This document shows positions 22,106 through 28,611 of a stretch of DNA of 48,889 bases, in pieces; position 1 is the first letter of the stretch; every line of letters begins with the position of its first letter. Under the pieces are notes generated by a model. It saw only the letters and a list, made by a program, of their open reading frames with translations, searched no databases and was not told the DNA's origin. The position numbers were made by a program, and so were the translations under genes. Origin of the DNA: Psychroflexus maritimus (GTDB taxonomy: Bacteria > Bacteroidota > Bacteroidia > Flavobacteriales > Flavobacteriaceae); assembly GCF_011089875.1 (NCBI RefSeq), contig NZ_JAANAS010000041.1:1-48889 (forward strand), read 5' to 3'.

Positions 22106-22121
22106 TGTAACAAATGTAACA
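22106..22121. promoter_or_regulatory. Crp/Fnr-type site 1, upstream of the peroxiredoxin gene
   Basis: TGTAAC-AAAT-GTAACA fits TGTAAC-N4-GTTACA with one mismatch in the right arm. It ends 21 bp before the -7 box at 22143. The spacing is identical to sites 2 and 3, as for an activator binding next to polymerase (class II position). Confidence 0.65.
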
Positions 22122-22142
22122 CTTACAACTATAAGTTTTATT

Positions 22143-22150
22143 TATTTTTG
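22143..22150 (+). promoter_or_regulatory. -7 box of the peroxiredoxin gene
   Basis: TATTTTTG. The -33 position (22120-22123) is CACT rather than TTTG, consistent with dependence on an activator at the adjacent palindrome. Confidence 0.6.
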
Positions 22151-22175
22151 CAGTGTAACTTAAAAGTTTTTAACT

Positions 22176-22850
22176 ATGGAAAAAAATGAAATAATGAACG
22201 AAGAAAAAGAAATTTTCACCATGCCAAAAATCGGTGATGATGCACCTAATTTCAAGGCAGTAACAACAAAAGGAAACATTGAATTAGATGGTTTTGCTAA
22301 AGACAAGTGGATTGTCATGTTTTCTCATCCAGCAGATTTTACACCTGTTTGTACTACTGAAATGAGTGGATTTGCAGAAAGAAAAGATGAATTCACTGCA
22401 TTAAATACAGAGCTTCTAGGACTAAGTATTGATTCTATTCACTCACATATTGGTTGGGTAGATAGCGTTAAGCAAAACACAGGAGTTTATTTAGATTTTC
22501 CAATCATTGCAGACATCGATATGAAAGTTTCTAAGCTTTATGGAATGTTGCAACCTAATGAAAGTGAAACCGCTGCTGTTAGAGCAGTATTTTTTATTGA
22601 CCCCAAAAAGAAAATTAGGTTAATTATGTACTACCCTTTAAATATTGGTAGAAACATGGACGAAATTTTAAGAGCGCTTGAAGCATTGCAATTTTCTGAT
22701 GAAAATGGTGTAGCTTGTCCCCTCGATTGGAAAAAAGGAGATAAAGCTATCGTACCACCGCCTAAAAACCTGAAAGAGTACGAAGAACGTATGGCTGATG
22801 ACAGTCTTGATAAAACCACTTGGTACTTAGCTAAGAAAGATGTAAAATAA
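22176..22850 (+). CDS. Peroxiredoxin, Prx6/1-Cys-like subfamily
   Basis: A thiol peroxidase reducing H2O2, organic peroxides or peroxynitrite. 224 residues. The peroxidatic cysteine is C59 in HPADFTPVCTTEM, and the long C-terminal domain (ACPLDWKKGDKAIVPPPKNL, with one more Cys) is that of the Prx6/archaeal AhpC group. Conserved homology seems to begin at MPKIGDDAPNF, so ATG 22221 is possible; 22176 is kept because it follows the promoter at a normal distance. Single-gene unit between two terminators, preceded by Crp/Fnr-type site 1, which ties it to the cytochrome and SQR genes downstream. Confidence 0.92.
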   Translation: MEKNEIMNEEKEIFTMPKIGDDAPNFKAVTTKGNIELDGFAKDKWIVMFSHPADFTPVCTTEMSGFAERKDEFTALNTELLGLSIDSIHSHIGWVDSVKQNTGVYLDFPIIADIDMKVSKLYGMLQPNESETAAVRAVFFIDPKKKIRLIMYYPLNIGRNMDEILRALEALQFSDENGVACPLDWKKGDKAIVPPPKNLKEYEERMADDSLDKTTWYLAKKDVK

Positions 22851-22883
22851 AAATTTCGTTATTGAAATTGACTTTTAAAAGAA

Positions 22884-22912
22884 ATCGCTCAAATAATGAG
22901 CGGTTTTTTTTT
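22884..22912 (+). terminator. Terminator after the peroxiredoxin gene
   Basis: CGCTCA-AATAA-TGAGCG followed by a run of nine T. Crp/Fnr-type site 2 begins 4 bp later. Confidence 0.88.
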
Positions 22913-22915
22913 ACT

Positions 22916-22931
22916 TGTAACTTATGTTACA
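22916..22931. promoter_or_regulatory. Crp/Fnr-type site 2, upstream of the cytochrome/carbonic anhydrase operon
   Basis: TGTAAC-TTAT-GTTACA is a perfect 6+4+6 palindrome ending 21 bp before the -7 box at 22953. Confidence 0.75.
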
Positions 22932-22952
22932 TGTTAATAATTTCATTAACTT

Positions 22953-22960
22953 TATTTTTG
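22953..22960 (+). promoter_or_regulatory. -7 box of the cytochrome/carbonic anhydrase operon
   Basis: TATTTTTG, with no TTTG at -33 (CATG instead). ATG 22989 lies 28 bp downstream. Confidence 0.6.
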
Positions 22961-22988
22961 GTGGCTCAACCTAACAATAAAAGAAGTG

Positions 22989-23984
22989 ATGAAAAAAGCA
23001 ATCGTATTAATAAGTGGCATTTTGTTATTTTTTACAGCTTGTAAAAAAAATAAAGAAACTACTTACGAAAAAAATTCAGAAGAGCACGGATTGGCTTCAG
23101 ATGAATTAGCAAAAAAAGGCAAAAAAGCAATGGAAAATAAATGCTATTTATGCCACAACCCTACTTCTTCAGAAAAAAACAGAATTGGTCCACCAATGCC
23201 AGCAATTAAAGCTAGATACTTAAAAGATGCTTCTACCAAAGAAGAGTTCATGCAAAGTATAGGGCATTTTGTTGAAAAGCCTTCAAAAGAAAAAGCTAAA
23301 CTAAAGGGAGCTATAAAACGTTTTGGAATAATGCCTTATCAAAAGTATAGCCAAGAAGAAATTGAGGCCATTGCTCATTTTATGTACGAATATAAAATAG
23401 AAGAGCCTGATTGGTTCAAAAAACACTGGCAAGAGAATCATGGCGACAATTATGAGCAAACAGGTAAAAAATGGAATGAAGGTGAACAAGAAAAAGATTT
23501 AGCTAGTATAGGTCTTAATTACGCTAAATCTACTAAAGCTCAACTAGGAAAAAACCTTATGGGAGCTATTCAAAAAGAAGGGGTAATTCACGCTTTAGAA
23601 TTTTGTAATGTGAGAGCTATGCCATTAACCGATTCCATGGCAACTGTTCATAACGCAACTATTAAACGAGTTTCAGATAAAAATAGAAATCCAGCCAATA
23701 AGGCTTCAGAAAAAGAAATAGAGTACATACAAAAGTTTAGTCAACAGATTCAAGCTGGTAAAGCCCCCCAACCTATTGTGGAAGAAAATGGGAATAAAGC
23801 AAACTTCTATTACCCAATTGTTACCAATGATATGTGCCTAAAATGCCATGGTGATATTGGTAAGCAAATTCAAGAAGAAACTTATGATAAAATTTTAAAA
23901 TTTTATCCTGAAGATAAAGCTATTGGCTACGATGTAAATCAAGTAAGAGGAATTTGGTCTATTGAATTTAACAATAAAAATTAA
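22989..23984 (+). CDS. Lipoprotein c-type cytochrome with DUF3365 (Tll0287-like) domain
   Basis: An envelope haem protein, 331 residues. A lipoprotein signal ends at C18 (LLFFTAC). The first part (about 35-125) is a monohaem cytochrome c: CYLCH at 52-56 and a likely axial Met in RFGIMPYQ. The second part (about 165-325) matches DUF3365, with a second haem motif CLKCH at 283-287 and the ALEFCNVRAMPLTDS helix. It probably carries electrons or senses a redox or gas signal in the periplasm. I prefer ATG 22989 to GTG 22986. First gene of a unit with carbonic anhydrase, under Crp/Fnr-type site 2. Confidence 0.85.
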   Translation: MKKAIVLISGILLFFTACKKNKETTYEKNSEEHGLASDELAKKGKKAMENKCYLCHNPTSSEKNRIGPPMPAIKARYLKDASTKEEFMQSIGHFVEKPSKEKAKLKGAIKRFGIMPYQKYSQEEIEAIAHFMYEYKIEEPDWFKKHWQENHGDNYEQTGKKWNEGEQEKDLASIGLNYAKSTKAQLGKNLMGAIQKEGVIHALEFCNVRAMPLTDSMATVHNATIKRVSDKNRNPANKASEKEIEYIQKFSQQIQAGKAPQPIVEENGNKANFYYPIVTNDMCLKCHGDIGKQIQEETYDKILKFYPEDKAIGYDVNQVRGIWSIEFNNKN

Positions 23985-23985
23985 A

Positions 23986-24765
23986 ATGAAAATCACTTAT
24001 TTATACTTAACTATCTTTTTGCTTGTATTAGGCTGTAAAGAAGATGAAAACAAATCAATAGAAAAAGACAAACTAAGCAATCATCAAGAATGGAGTTACG
24101 AAGGCGAGGCAGGTCCTGAACATTGGAAAGAATTAACAAATAATTCGGAGTGTGGCGGAAATTTTCAATCGCCTATCAATCTTGTTAAGTACACAAAAAA
24201 TAAGAACTTAAAGCCTATTGATTTTAGATACGATGAAAAAACAGTCTTACACAGCGTAGAAAATAATGGGCATACTATAAAGTATAATTTTGAACCTGGC
24301 GATTATATAAGTTGGGAGGGAAAAAACTATAACTTAACTCAATTTCATTTTCACGAACCAGCAGAACATTTAATAGATGGAGTTCGTTATCCTTTGGCAA
24401 TTCACTTAGTCCATCAAGCAAAAAATGGTGAACTTTTAGTTATTGAAATACTAGCTAAAGAAGGCCATAACAGCGAACCTTTCGATTTTTTAGAAAGTTT
24501 TCTGCCTATTCAAAAAGGAGAAGAAAAATTAATTAATCGTTCTTTTGATATGAATTTAAATTTACCTTCCAACAAAAATTACTTTACTTATGTTGGCTCA
24601 CTTACCACCCCACCCTGCCGTGAAGGAGTAAGATGGATTATTTTCGAAAAACCTATCTTAGTATCTCTAGAACAAGTAGAAATGCTCAAATATTTAATGC
24701 CCATCAAAAATTACAGAGAAGAGCAACCTGTTCATGGAAGAAAAATTGAACAGTCAAGTTTTTAA
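23986..24765 (+). CDS. Alpha-class carbonic anhydrase, lipoprotein
   Basis: Interconverts CO2 and bicarbonate in the envelope. 259 residues. Lipoprotein signal with C17 (LLVLGC). Zinc ligands are H121 and H123 (TQFHFHEPAEH) and H140 (AIHLVHQ); substrate-pocket GSLTTPPCREGVRW and the C56/CREG cysteine pair for a disulfide are present. The start is the ATG one base after the cytochrome stop; the TTG at 23962 would give a longer, non-signal N-terminus and is rejected. Cotranscribed with the cytochrome. Confidence 0.92.
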   Translation: MKITYLYLTIFLLVLGCKEDENKSIEKDKLSNHQEWSYEGEAGPEHWKELTNNSECGGNFQSPINLVKYTKNKNLKPIDFRYDEKTVLHSVENNGHTIKYNFEPGDYISWEGKNYNLTQFHFHEPAEHLIDGVRYPLAIHLVHQAKNGELLVIEILAKEGHNSEPFDFLESFLPIQKGEEKLINRSFDMNLNLPSNKNYFTYVGSLTTPPCREGVRWIIFEKPILVSLEQVEMLKYLMPIKNYREEQPVHGRKIEQSSF

Positions 24766-24844
24766 AAGAGTTAAGCCTAATGTAAAAATAATTTCAATTC
24801 TTCTTATGAAGTATAAGTTAGCTATTAATTTTAAAATCAAATAA

Positions 24845-25522
24845 ATGAAAACTTTAGGAATTATTGGAGGTACCTCATACCACTCGACCGTAGAATATTA
24901 TAAAGAAATCAACCGACTTGTTAGTGAACAAATAGGAAGTGATCAAAACCCTGAGCTTATTATCTACAGCATCAATATTGATGTTATGAGAAGACAGAAC
25001 ATAGATGAGATAAACGCCAAATACTTAGAGGTGGCTAAAAAGTTAGAACAAGCTGGGGCAAAAGCTATAATCATAGCCGCTAACACCCCACACATGGCGG
25101 TTAATTATGTCCAACCAAAAATCACTATTCCGTTTTTGCATATTGGAGATGCCGTTGCTAAAGAAGCTCAGAAATTAAAACTTAAAAAGCTATTACTCCT
25201 AGGCAATAAACCAACAATGACGAAGGCTTTTTTAAAAGAATACTTAAGAGAAAAATATGCTATTGAAGTAATTATTCCAGACCAAACAAATATTGAACAA
25301 TCACATCATTATGTTTCTAAAGAGCTAACGCAAGGAGTCTTTACTCAAGCAGCAAAAACATATTATAAGCAACTTATTGAAAACTACCACAAACAAGCTG
25401 ATGGAGTAATTCTGGGATGCACGGAACTGCCTCTCTTACTAAATAATGAAAAACTATCTTTACAAGCAATTGCTACAACAAATTTACACATCAATTTAGC
25501 TGTGAGTTTTATTATAACCTGA
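24845..25522 (+). CDS. Aspartate/glutamate racemase-family protein with one catalytic Cys replaced
   Basis: 225 residues, related to amino-acid racemases of the Asp/Glu/hydantoin superfamily: MKTLGIIGGTSYHSTVEYYKE at the N-terminus and the second catalytic cysteine C192 in LGCTELP. The first catalytic position, normally Cys (or Thr in YgeA-type enzymes) before NT, is A79 (AANTPH), so two-base racemisation is doubtful; it may be one-sided, a lyase or non-catalytic. The stop TGA lies within the inverted repeat of a MITE-like element, so the extreme C-terminus may have been rewritten. It lies 79 bp after carbonic anhydrase, probably on the same transcript. Confidence 0.8.
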   Translation: MKTLGIIGGTSYHSTVEYYKEINRLVSEQIGSDQNPELIIYSINIDVMRRQNIDEINAKYLEVAKKLEQAGAKAIIIAANTPHMAVNYVQPKITIPFLHIGDAVAKEAQKLKLKKLLLLGNKPTMTKAFLKEYLREKYAIEVIIPDQTNIEQSHHYVSKELTQGVFTQAAKTYYKQLIENYHKQADGVILGCTELPLLLNNEKLSLQAIATTNLHINLAVSFIIT

Positions 25523-25666
25523 GTTGGATTACTCGATTTCATTCAAATAAGAACACCTATTTATTGCGTTAATTTTAATCACGATAGCTAAGGCTATCCT
25601 TCAAAAAATTACCTTATAACTGTATATACTTATTGATTTTGACTTTATAATTATAATTCAACTCAG
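25519..25666. repeat. MITE-like element, 148 bp
   Basis: Ends are CTGAGTTGGATTA and, in reverse complement, CTGAGTTGAATTA (12 of 13 identical). Inside is a second palindrome, GATAGC-TAAG-GCTATC (25584-25599). No coding potential. It lies between the racemase-like gene, whose stop it contains, and the SQR promoter. Copy number in the genome cannot be seen here. Confidence 0.5.
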
Positions 25667-25705
25667 ATTAATAGACAATTGAAAACTAAGGATTTAACAT
25701 TTTAA

Positions 25706-25721
25706 TGTAACATAAGTTACA
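25706..25721. promoter_or_regulatory. Crp/Fnr-type site 3, upstream of the SQR gene
   Basis: TGTAAC-ATAA-GTTACA, perfect arms, extended on both sides (TTAA before, TTAA after). It ends 21 bp before the -7 box at 25743, as at sites 1 and 2. Confidence 0.75.
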
Positions 25722-25742
25722 TTAAATTCAAATTTCACCACT

Positions 25743-25750
25743 TATATTTG
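25743..25750 (+). promoter_or_regulatory. -7 box of the SQR gene
   Basis: TATATTTG; the -33 position is CATT. It implies a leader of about 110 nt containing a possible 12-codon ORF. Confidence 0.6.
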
Positions 25751-25864: not shown

Positions 25865-27121
25865 ATGAAATCAAAATTTGAAGTTTTAATCATTGGAGGA
25901 GGAACAGCAGGAATCATGACCGCCGCTCAATTACAGAAGAAAAACAAGCAATTAAGCATAGCTATAATTGATCCTGCCAACAAACATTATTACCAACCTG
26001 CATGGACACTTGTTGGAGCTGGGACTTACGATTATGAAGACACTGCCAAGCCAATGAAAGAGTTAATTCCAGAAGGAGTGACTTGGATTAAAGATTACGC
26101 AACCGAGTTTCAGCCAGAAAATAATGCTGTAGCCACGAAAGAAAATGGATTAATTACTTACAATTATTTAGTAGTTGCTCCAGGATTAGTCATGGAACCA
26201 AGTATGTTAGATGGATTAGAAGATGCCTTAGATAAAGGCGTTGTATGTAGTAATTACACAGACCCTAAGCATACGTGGGAAGTGCTTAAAAATTTTAAAG
26301 GAGGAAATGCCATATTTACTCAACCTACAACCCCAATAAAATGTGGTGGTGCACCGCAGAAAATAGCTTATTTGGCAGCCGACTATTTCAAGCAAAACAA
26401 TATTGATGCAAGAGTAGTTTATGCTACACCAGGCTCTGTTTTATTTGGTGTAAAGCAAATTAGAGATACACTTACCCGAGTAGTAGAACGTTACGGAATG
26501 GTCTTCAAACCATTTTACGCGCCAAAACTGATTGATACGAAGAAAAAAATTATTACTTTTCAATATGTAGGCGATGATGAAAATCAGTGTGTCACTAACG
26601 AATCTAAAGAAATTGGTGAAAAAATTTCAGGAGTTACCAATATTGAAGTTCCTTTTGATATGCTTCACTTAGCTCCACCACAAGCAGCACCTAAATTTGT
26701 GAGAGAATCAAGTTTAGTAAATGATGCAGGCTGGTTAGATGTGAACATCAATTCATTACAACATAATACCCATAAAAATATTTTTGGATTAGGTGATGTT
26801 GCTGGGTTACCAACGGCTAAAACAGGCGCCGCAATTAGAAAGCAAGTGCCCGTTGTAGTTGATAACCTCGTGCAATTAATGAACAATCAACAAGCACAAA
26901 ACGAGTCTTACAAAGGTTATTCTTCTTGTCCGCTTGTTACTGGTTTTGGCAAAATGGCATTGGCAGAATTTGATTATGAAGGTAATTTTACTCCAGACCC
27001 TAATTTGAAAAAAATGTTGGTTTTCAATTCTGCAAAAGAACATTGGAGACTATGGATGCTTAAAAAATACGGACTTCCCTACCTCTATTGGAACAAAATG
27101 ATGAAAGGGCAAGACGTATAA
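25865..27121 (+). CDS. sqr: Sulfide:quinone oxidoreductase (SQOR-like, type II)
   Basis: A membrane-associated FAD enzyme that oxidises sulfide and passes electrons to quinone, leaving a persulfide or sulfane product. 418 residues: FAD-binding IIGGGTAGIMTA near residues 9-20, the second dinucleotide region around IFTQPTTPIKCGGAPQK, and GLGDVAGLPTAKTGAAIRKQ. The redox cysteines fit C160 (PIKCGG) and C355 (YSSCPLVTGFGKMALAEFDY), the pair typical of mitochondrial-type SQOR; C128 is extra. Own promoter with Crp/Fnr-type site 3 and own terminator. Confidence 0.9.
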   Translation: MKSKFEVLIIGGGTAGIMTAAQLQKKNKQLSIAIIDPANKHYYQPAWTLVGAGTYDYEDTAKPMKELIPEGVTWIKDYATEFQPENNAVATKENGLITYNYLVVAPGLVMEPSMLDGLEDALDKGVVCSNYTDPKHTWEVLKNFKGGNAIFTQPTTPIKCGGAPQKIAYLAADYFKQNNIDARVVYATPGSVLFGVKQIRDTLTRVVERYGMVFKPFYAPKLIDTKKKIITFQYVGDDENQCVTNESKEIGEKISGVTNIEVPFDMLHLAPPQAAPKFVRESSLVNDAGWLDVNINSLQHNTHKNIFGLGDVAGLPTAKTGAAIRKQVPVVVDNLVQLMNNQQAQNESYKGYSSCPLVTGFGKMALAEFDYEGNFTPDPNLKKMLVFNSAKEHWRLWMLKKYGLPYLYWNKMMKGQDV

Positions 27122-27352: not shown

Positions 27353-27362
27353 TAAAAAAAAT

Positions 27363-27377
27363 GCACTATAATAGTGC
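27363..27377. promoter_or_regulatory. Upstream 15-bp palindrome of the ATPase promoter
   Basis: GCACTAT-A-ATAGTGC, perfect. It belongs to a 26-bp unit repeated at 27393-27418 with only the central base changed; centres are 32 bp apart, about three helical turns. Confidence 0.6.
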
Positions 27378-27394
27378 GTTTTTTGTGGTTTTAT

Positions 27395-27409
27395 GCACTA
27401 TTATAGTGC
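27395..27409. promoter_or_regulatory. Downstream 15-bp palindrome of the ATPase promoter
   Basis: GCACTAT-T-ATAGTGC, perfect. It covers the position of the -33 box and ends 8 bp before the -7 box, so a bound protein would probably block or remodel polymerase binding. Confidence 0.6.
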
Positions 27410-27417
27410 GTTTTTTG

Positions 27418-27425
27418 TATTTTTG
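27418..27425 (+). promoter_or_regulatory. -7 box of the AAA ATPase gene
   Basis: TATTTTTG, 16 bp before ATG 27442. Because the promoter lies inside the longer frame beginning at 27361, the downstream ATG is the start. Confidence 0.55.
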
Positions 27426-27441
27426 CGCCAAACTATTAGAA

Positions 27442-28611
27442 ATGAATCAATTAATTGAATATTCGACTAATCTACTTAAACAAGTTGATACTAAATTTGT
27501 AAGATATTTACACAACGAAATCAATTGGAACAATAGGTTAATTGGAATTATAGGGGCTAGAGGTGTTGGCAAAACAACCTTGGTGCTTCAATATATCAAG
27601 CAATCACTCGATGAGAAAAAGGCACTTTATGTAACAGCTGAGGACTTGTTTTTTAGTACACATACACTGATTGAGCTAGCCACTGAATTTGTCAACTATG
27701 GAGGAAAACACCTTGTTATAGATGAAATTCACAAATACGAAAAATGGTCAAAAGAATTAAAGTTAATCTACGATTTACATCCAAATTTACAAGTCATATT
27801 TACAGGCTCATCTGTTTTAGACATTAAAAAAGGGAATGCAGATTTAAGCAGAAGAGCCATTATTTACTTTATGAGGGGGTTATCATTTAGGGAATACCTA
27901 GGTTTGTTTCATCAAATTAATTTACCCGCATACAGCCTGACGGAAATACTTCAATTAAAAGCAGATTTTTCTTCTCTTGAAGCGCCTCTCCCTTATTTTA
28001 CCACCTATTTGAATTCAGGATATTATCCATTTTCCTTAGAAGATGATTTTGAAATTCGTCTTCGCCAAATAATTAATCAAACCATGGAAGTTGATATTCC
28101 TTTCTTTGCTGGGATGAATATTTCGACCGCAAGAAAAATTAAGCATCTTCTAAGCATAATTGCCACAAGCGTTCCCTTTAAACCGAACTTTAGTAAAATT
28201 GCTGAAATAGTAGGAGTAAGTAGAAATAATATTGCTGATTACTTAAACTACTTAGAAGAGGCAGGACTTATCATACAAATTTCACTTCCTAAAATAGGTA
28301 TAAGAAGTATTGGTAAAACCGAAAAAATCTATCTGGAAAACACCAACTTAGCTATGGCTTTAAGTGAAGATAAAACGAATATTGGAACACTTAGAGAAAC
28401 ATTTTTTCTCAATCAAGTTAGTGTCAAACATACGATTAGTCTGTCTGCAAAAGTTGATTTTCAAGTGGAAGACTTCCAATTTGAAATTGGAGGTAAAAAC
28501 AAAAAGAAAAAACAAATTGAAAACATACCTAATTCATATATCGTGAAAGATGATATAATTAATGGTTTTGGAAATGTAATTCCGTTGTGGCATTTTGGGT
28601 TTTTATATTAG
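27442..28611 (+). CDS. AAA_14/DUF4143 ATPase with winged-helix-like C-terminal domain
   Basis: 389 residues. P-loop GARGVGKT at 38-45, Walker B HLVIDEIHKYEKW and the sensor region VIFTGSSVLDI, then a DUF4143-type C-terminal half with a predicted HTH (PNFSKIAEIVGVSRNNIADYLNYLEEAGLI) and a lone Asn/Lys-rich tail. Members are abundant in Bacteroidota and archaea and often look mobile; their function is poorly known. Start is ATG 27442, since the frame's upstream part encodes only the promoter and palindromes. Twin palindromes suggest tight control, perhaps by its own product. Single gene, next to a degenerate repeat. Confidence 0.82.
   Translation: MNQLIEYSTNLLKQVDTKFVRYLHNEINWNNRLIGIIGARGVGKTTLVLQYIKQSLDEKKALYVTAEDLFFSTHTLIELATEFVNYGGKHLVIDEIHKYEKWSKELKLIYDLHPNLQVIFTGSSVLDIKKGNADLSRRAIIYFMRGLSFREYLGLFHQINLPAYSLTEILQLKADFSSLEAPLPYFTTYLNSGYYPFSLEDDFEIRLRQIINQTMEVDIPFFAGMNISTARKIKHLLSIIATSVPFKPNFSKIAEIVGVSRNNIADYLNYLEEAGLIIQISLPKIGIRSIGKTEKIYLENTNLAMALSEDKTNIGTLRETFFLNQVSVKHTISLSAKVDFQVEDFQFEIGGKNKKKKQIENIPNSYIVKDDIINGFGNVIPLWHFGFLY

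Follow-up and report, generated by a model that had tools for sequence, protein, structure and literature searches.

Fixed-distance Crp/Fnr-type sites point to a sulfide and persulfide regulon in Psychroflexus maritimus and other Flavobacteriaceae

In a stretch of 48,889 nucleotides from Psychroflexus maritimus (contig NZ_JAANAS010000041.1, positions 1 to 48,889; the window), three promoters between positions 22106 and 25750 carry the same Crp/Fnr-type palindrome at the same distance from the -7 box, raising the question of which regulon they belong to and which protein recognizes them. A sequence-only reading of this DNA had proposed a shared sulfide/peroxide regulon. From our analyses we conclude, with a probability of roughly 0.78, that the three sites are part of a genome-wide sulfide and persulfide detoxification regulon under a class II activator of the Crp/Fnr superfamily, encoded on contig C30 of the same genome and here called C30 Crp. 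Genome comparison shows the sites and their spacing, the genes behind them and their connection with C30 Crp.

The palindrome TGTAAC-N4-GTTACA is found on the forward strand with perfect arms at 22916..22931 and 25706..25721 and with one mismatch at 22106..22121; coordinates, arms and the single mismatch were exact on re-reading. In all three promoters 21 bp separate it from the -7 box, which reads TATTTTTG for the peroxiredoxin gene prx6 (22143..22150) and for the cytochrome and carbonic anhydrase genes (22953..22960), and TATATTTG for the sulfide:quinone oxidoreductase (SQR) gene sqr (25743..25750), and each palindrome is centred 36.5 bp before the final base of its box. The suggestion that such an arrangement is unlikely by chance is borne out: palindrome, 21 bp and -7 box occur together three times in the window against 0.12 expected, and 0 of 100 shuffles reached three. 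The 16-mer alone (≤2 mismatches) is not enriched, with 4 occurrences in the window versus 2.03 expected (at least 4 in 16 of 100 shuffles) and 156 in the whole genome versus 172 for the reversed pattern, and a genome search with it was dropped for lack of enrichment at this threshold. Palindrome, 21 bp and TANNTTTG (≤3 mismatches) gave 15+5 sites in the 2.59-Mb genome versus 1+0 for the reversed pattern; the combination does not, then, occur before unrelated genes at background frequency (20 sites against 1). The signal sits in the combination of palindrome and -7 box, not in the palindrome by itself.

The sequence-only reading had also taken the missing -33 TTTG as a mark of class II activation. 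Its absence from the three promoters is correct but carries no diagnostic value, since ordinary boxes lack it as well: in DNA of the same genome, TTTG stands 21-25 bp 5' of 1 of 62 ordinary TANNTTTG boxes, and at no single offset between 14 and 29 bp is it found in more than 2 of the 62. The missing -33 element was discarded as evidence after this control.

The genes behind the three sites are all on the forward strand. The first encodes a 1-Cys peroxiredoxin of the Prx6 type (22176..22850; PF00578 and PF10417, with NCBIfam PRK13189 above its cut-off). The second site precedes a lipoprotein-like cytochrome with a Tll0287 domain (22989..23984; PF11845; two CXXCH motifs, CYLCH and CLKCH), behind which lies an alpha-type carbonic anhydrase (23987..24765; PF00194; the ATG start at 23987 was read from the sequence). 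The third gene encodes an SQR of the human-mitochondrial-like kind (25865..27121; PDB sequence match 1.5e-89), matching the NCBIfam type III selenoprotein SQR model below its cut-off. From its -7 box to the start of sqr there are 114 nt, whereas most other targets in this genome have about 30 nt or less. Directly upstream of sqr lies an aspartate/glutamate racemase-like gene (24845-25522), as it does in the congener loci L262, L263, L281 and L283; no site of its own was seen for it in the window or in those four congeners.

The regulon reaches well beyond the window. The genome (2.59 Mb in 126 contigs, 99.97% complete) holds 14 sites with ≤2 mismatches, 13 of which precede a correctly oriented gene, and most of these are sulfur or thiol genes. 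Besides the three window promoters, the sites serve a rhodanese, an HMA protein and an MBL-rhodanese on C30; TauE with an MBL-rhodanese, and DUF983, on C60; a pair of YeeE/YedE-type sulfur transporters on C36; a further MBL-rhodanese on C41; thioredoxin on C49; SCO1 on C71; TolC and HlyD on C37; a TPMT-like methyltransferase on C38; and a member of the fatty-acid-hydroxylase family on C126. Sites with three mismatches precede a YgaP-like transmembrane protein (C36) and MarC (C115), and others lie on C11, on C65 and at C60:16613(+). The weak site C30:4226(+) lies in antisense orientation where a MarC gene ends. On the reverse strand, its partner (3 mismatches) is directed at an OprD-like porin gene, and congeners have better sites at the relatives of this gene. 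Nearly the full length of the MBL-rhodanese is covered by its matches to the PDB chains 3tp9 and 3r2u, the latter being CstB of Staphylococcus aureus. SQR, a persulfide dioxygenase-type enzyme and sulfurtransferase and transport genes thus have a common site, which lends good support to a shared Crp/Fnr-type regulon around sulfide metabolism. The peroxide half of the earlier proposal is weaker, resting as it does on Prx6 and, elsewhere in the genome, thioredoxin, both of which would also fit persulfide stress.

The regulator had been said not to lie in the window; this is so, and the same genome contains a strong candidate. A search with PF13545 yielded two Crp/Fnr proteins, namely C30 Crp (C30:39914-40549, 211 aa, outside the window) and a response-regulator fusion, REC-Crp, on C60, and a search with PF00027 gave one further match, in a 647-aa frame. 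C30 Crp matches PF00027 and PF13545 above both cut-offs and its fold matches CRP, NtcA and FNR, placing it in the Crp/Fnr superfamily. No NCBIfam model exceeds its cut-off for this protein; its best PDB sequence match is 3dv8. Judged by the Crp protein, the nearest named relatives of the genome are the Flavobacteriaceae metagenome-assembled genomes T3Sed10_96 and PBR18_bin10A (91 and 90%). Two familiar identities were rejected. The phosphate-cassette residues of CRP are E72 and R82, which align with M79 and K89 here, and the NCBIfam CRP model scores 57 bits against a cut-off of 266, so that a cyclic AMP (cAMP)-binding CRP is not indicated. FNR senses oxygen with four Fe-S-cluster cysteines, three of them N-terminal; C30 Crp has three cysteines in total, none of them N-terminal.

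Across the family the sites follow this protein. The 149 family genomes, P. maritimus included, contain 627 sites versus 69 for the control (≤2 mismatches). Leaving out P. maritimus, the mean per genome is 5.82 (control 0.43) in the 83 genomes with a close C30 Crp match (E<1e-70), 3.21 (0.65) in the 34 with a match between 1e-70 and 1e-50, 0.89 (1.00) in the 9 with a weak match and 0.59 (0.09) in the 22 with none. With nothing but the Crp protein as query, 28 named loci were fetched. They contained 18 of 24 target families of P. maritimus (the doubtful aspartate racemase, cytochrome c peroxidase-like neighbour and two MarC being counted among the 24) versus 10 of 140 of its control proteins, four of these 10 belonging to its own crp neighbourhood (Fisher p 2.7e-12). 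Kordia, Flaviramulus and [Muricauda] lutisoli have crp followed by TauE, MBL-rhodanese, rhodanese or YeeE/YedE with sites in between, and in [Muricauda] lutisoli the cytochrome and SQR also lie downstream of crp. In many relatives a site directly adjoins the crp gene. Twenty loci with 45-53%-identical Crp proteins, hand-picked and in several cases chosen for known sites, have YeeE and YedE beside crp in 20/20 and TauE with MBL-rhodanese in 18/20; a site by a relaxed pattern is present in 18/20.

The window sites themselves are conserved to differing degrees. SQR (E≤1e-60) is encoded in 28 of the 149 family genomes, all 28 of which have a close Crp orthologue. After exclusion of the SQR gene of L170, which is cut by a contig end, a site (≤3 mismatches, ≤250 bp upstream) was found before 24 of 27 intact SQR genes including that of the window, compared with 3 of 5600 shuffles, which for the SQR, cytochrome and cydA upstream tests keep base composition only. 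It lies 62-85 bp upstream in 23 of them and at 159 bp in P. maritimus; the SQR genes of L147, L154 and L168 have none. In SQR promoters of relatives (L144-L169) the -7 box often ends in TTTA rather than TTTG, perhaps marking a weaker core promoter that would need an activator.

Within the genus, 21 genomes hold 327 sites versus 130 for the control (≤3 mismatches). We fetched 28 congener loci, 20 of them around the best site of each relative and 8 around a second-best site. In 25 the gene served by the site is a member of the P. maritimus target set (TauE, TolC, MBL-rhodanese, rhodanese, fatty-acid-hydroxylase type, SQR, Prx6, DUF983, SCO1 and cytochrome; the OprD-like porin, which in P. maritimus has a weak site, accounts for three of the 25), in two it is cydA and in one a YgaP-like transmembrane protein. 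Prx6 has a site in the congener loci L265, L282 and L285 as well, and L282 unites TauE, MBL-rhodanese, Prx6 and cytochrome-carbonic anhydrase in one cluster, each behind a site. The arrangement is therefore conserved in relatives, as both the SQR genes (24/27) and the congener targets (25/28) demonstrate. The cydA gene, encoding cytochrome bd subunit I, was an unlooked-for target. In the genus (L287-L297) it has a site with ≤3 mismatches in 7 of 11 cases and with ≤2 in 4 of 11, against 1 of 2200 shuffles; this count leaves out L298, for which no start was obtained, and the fragment L299. A search of the P. maritimus genome did not find cydA. The target fits a sulfide response, because sulfide induces cydAB, which resists sulfide, in Acinetobacter baumannii (PMC7315123).

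Several observations weigh against assigning these sites to a sulfide regulon under C30 Crp. SCO1, TolC/HlyD, DUF983, MarC and the fatty-acid-hydroxylase type are not sulfur genes by name, and the cytochrome site is kept in merely 9 of 30 loci, that of the window included (shuffles 1/6000). The crp gene of P. maritimus has neither an adjoining site nor target families beside it, the crp loci L115 and L116 of the two closest named relatives show the same lack, and sites with ≤2 mismatches occur in just 13 of the 28 named crp loci. Two of the three cysteines discussed below, C83 and C84, are absent in L139 and L229, and C84 is absent in L219. In a clade of about 50% identity, whose Crp has the same Arg-Val recognition residues, the MBL sites of 5 of 20 loci have TGTGAC arms. 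Finally, genomes with both Crp proteins have somewhat more sites than those in which C30-type Crp alone was found (5.79 versus 4.38; p 0.014).

This last figure speaks for REC-Crp as the protein that binds the sites, as do its being the sole other PF13545 protein in the genome and its co-occurrence with C30 Crp in 63 of 66 REC-Crp genomes. The 55 genomes with C30-type Crp and no REC-Crp found nevertheless average 4.38 sites, while the three with REC-Crp only average 1.33; in this comparison the absence of REC-Crp is uncertain, 14 first-look candidates having been scored per genome, and the REC-only match of G002 was removed. Moreover, the recognition helix of REC-Crp has Ser-Glu where arginine and no glutamate are expected. 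Disfavoured by both site counts and recognition residues, REC-Crp is a highly improbable regulator of the sites.

The recognition helix of C30 Crp, on the other hand, has R182 and V183 at the CRP positions 180 and 181. According to Rodionov et al. 2005 (PMC1274295), R180 together with loss of Glu-181, replaced by Pro in HcpR2, correlates with GTAACnnnnGTTAC, and the R182/V183 pair would fit this link. The specificity rule is not strict, because the Arg-Val clade mentioned above uses TGTGAC arms before MBL. In the loci of this clade (L211-L230), MBL sites are often TGTGAC-N4-GTCACA and YeeE sites AGTAACATTTATCACA or similar, which would amount to one regulator with two site types in one operon.

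The resemblance to HcpR2 opens another explanation, namely that these are HcpR2-type sites whose regulator answers nitric oxide or nitrosative stress, for example through haem. The HcpR2 motif GTAACnnnnGTTAC given in PMC1274295 is the core of our palindrome, and the HcpR2 branch shares R at 180 and the lack of Glu at 181. Three of four hcp loci found in the class have a similar site of the TGTAAC type, again with exactly 21 bp between palindrome and TANNTTTG (L205:3216, L206:3195 and L207:3234). Haem binding is reported (PMC6955866) for PgRsp of Porphyromonas gingivalis, a Crp/Fnr protein that has Cys76 and Met78. However, hcp (PF03063) was not found in the P. maritimus genome, where norB and hmp were not searched for, and of 198 class genomes only 4 have it above the cut-off. 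Where Crp/Fnr proteins adjoin hcp (L208, L207), their match to C30 Crp covers the DNA-binding part only, at 21-22%, and they have Arg-Pro where C30 Crp has Arg-Val; similarity to HcpR2 is likewise small beyond the DNA-binding part, and the targets are sulfur genes, not hcp. With hcp absent, no close kin among the hcp-adjacent proteins and Val instead of Pro at 181, we rejected HcpR2 identity, and a nitrosative-stress regulator seems very unlikely. Because three of four hcp loci have a similar site at the same spacing, the 21-bp geometry is probably a common feature of Crp/Fnr promoters throughout the phylum.

The geometry also bears on how C30 Crp would act. The 57 loci around crp orthologues contain 50 exact TANNTTTG boxes 0-44 bp 3' of a palindrome, with a spacer of 21 bp in 41, 20 bp in 2 and 22 bp in 2. 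The site thus sits at a constant distance immediately 5' of the core promoter, in agreement with class II geometry. From such patterns we infer that C30 Crp binds, which way it regulates, where transcription begins and which signal it answers: it would bind TGTAAC-N4-GTTACA, whose centre lies 36.5 bp before the final base of the Bacteroidota -7 box, or near -41.5 provided that the transcript begins some 5 nt beyond the box, and would activate by touching RNA polymerase in the class II manner. The nearly invariant spacing argues for this polymerase contact and hence for activation, and activation is the usual effect of Crp/Fnr proteins bound here. It is unlikely that C30 Crp instead acts as a repressor, blocking the -33 region until persulfidation releases it. 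With its centre near -41.5 the site would extend over the -33 region too, and BigR is a persulfide-released repressor (PMC7315123); yet a repressor has no need of an exact distance, and 41 of the 50 boxes have the 21-bp spacer.

As to the signal, the only cysteines of C30 Crp are C77, C83 and C84, with none before residue 77, and they are conserved in 59/59, 58/59 and 58/59 sequences, respectively. Their segment aligns with the cAMP cassette of CRP, its phosphate-binding segment. The predicted structure cannot place them, its block means of 64 and 58 for residues 71-90 indicating low confidence. Since the cysteines lie in the cAMP-cassette segment and the targets are sulfide genes, persulfide or polysulfide is the likeliest signal, and would react with the C77, C83 and C84 thiols. 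In our judgement it is slightly better than an even chance that C30 Crp is a persulfide sensor of a new type, with a cyclic-nucleotide cassette turned into a three-cysteine switch, that as an activator it has chief control over how Flavobacteriaceae oxidize sulfide, handle persulfide, export sulfur and, in certain species, respire in a sulfide-resistant way, and that a more distant clade keeps a compact crp-YeeE-YedE-TauE-MBL operon under it.

Another palindrome in the window was noticed by eye: at 27365-27420, a short palindrome around GCACTATNATAGTGC is present in two copies before an AAA/DUF4143 gene (27361-28611).

The proposed system combines features of several known ones. With the E. 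coli CRP class II promoter layout it shares the fold, a TGT-armed palindrome and a position near -41.5, but M79 and K89 stand at E72 and R82, and the layout is used here with a Bacteroidota -7 box. CstR is a repressor of another family. The FisR, BigR and CstR regulons resemble ours in the logic of their targets, with SQR, persulfide dioxygenase, TauE and YeeE/YedE, and with cydAB, which sulfide induces there; PMC7315123 describes FisR as a sigma-54 activator and BigR as an ArsR-family repressor, whereas the candidate here is a Crp/Fnr protein. The best PDB match of C30 Crp, 3dv8, was also the template chosen for PgRsp, which has a Cys-x-Met in the same place by residue number; unlike what we propose for C30 Crp, PgRsp binds haem, and the word 'sulfide' is absent from the text of PMC6955866. 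The superfamily and the target logic are therefore known, while the pairing and the likely sensor were not found described in the open-access literature: among the matches listed, no title or abstract beginning described a Bacteroidota regulon of this kind under a Crp/Fnr protein.

The identification of these sites is relevant to how flavobacteria cope with sulfide. For flavobacterial control of sulfide detoxification, of which we found no description in the open-access literature, there are now a candidate regulator, a site, a promoter geometry and a target list. One three-cysteine regulator common to many flavobacteria probably switches the gene set on. The arrangement of palindrome, 21 bp and TANNTTTG is offered as a rule for finding Crp/Fnr targets in Bacteroidota, and C30 Crp would add a Crp/Fnr member to the sulfide-responsive regulators FisR, BigR and CstR.

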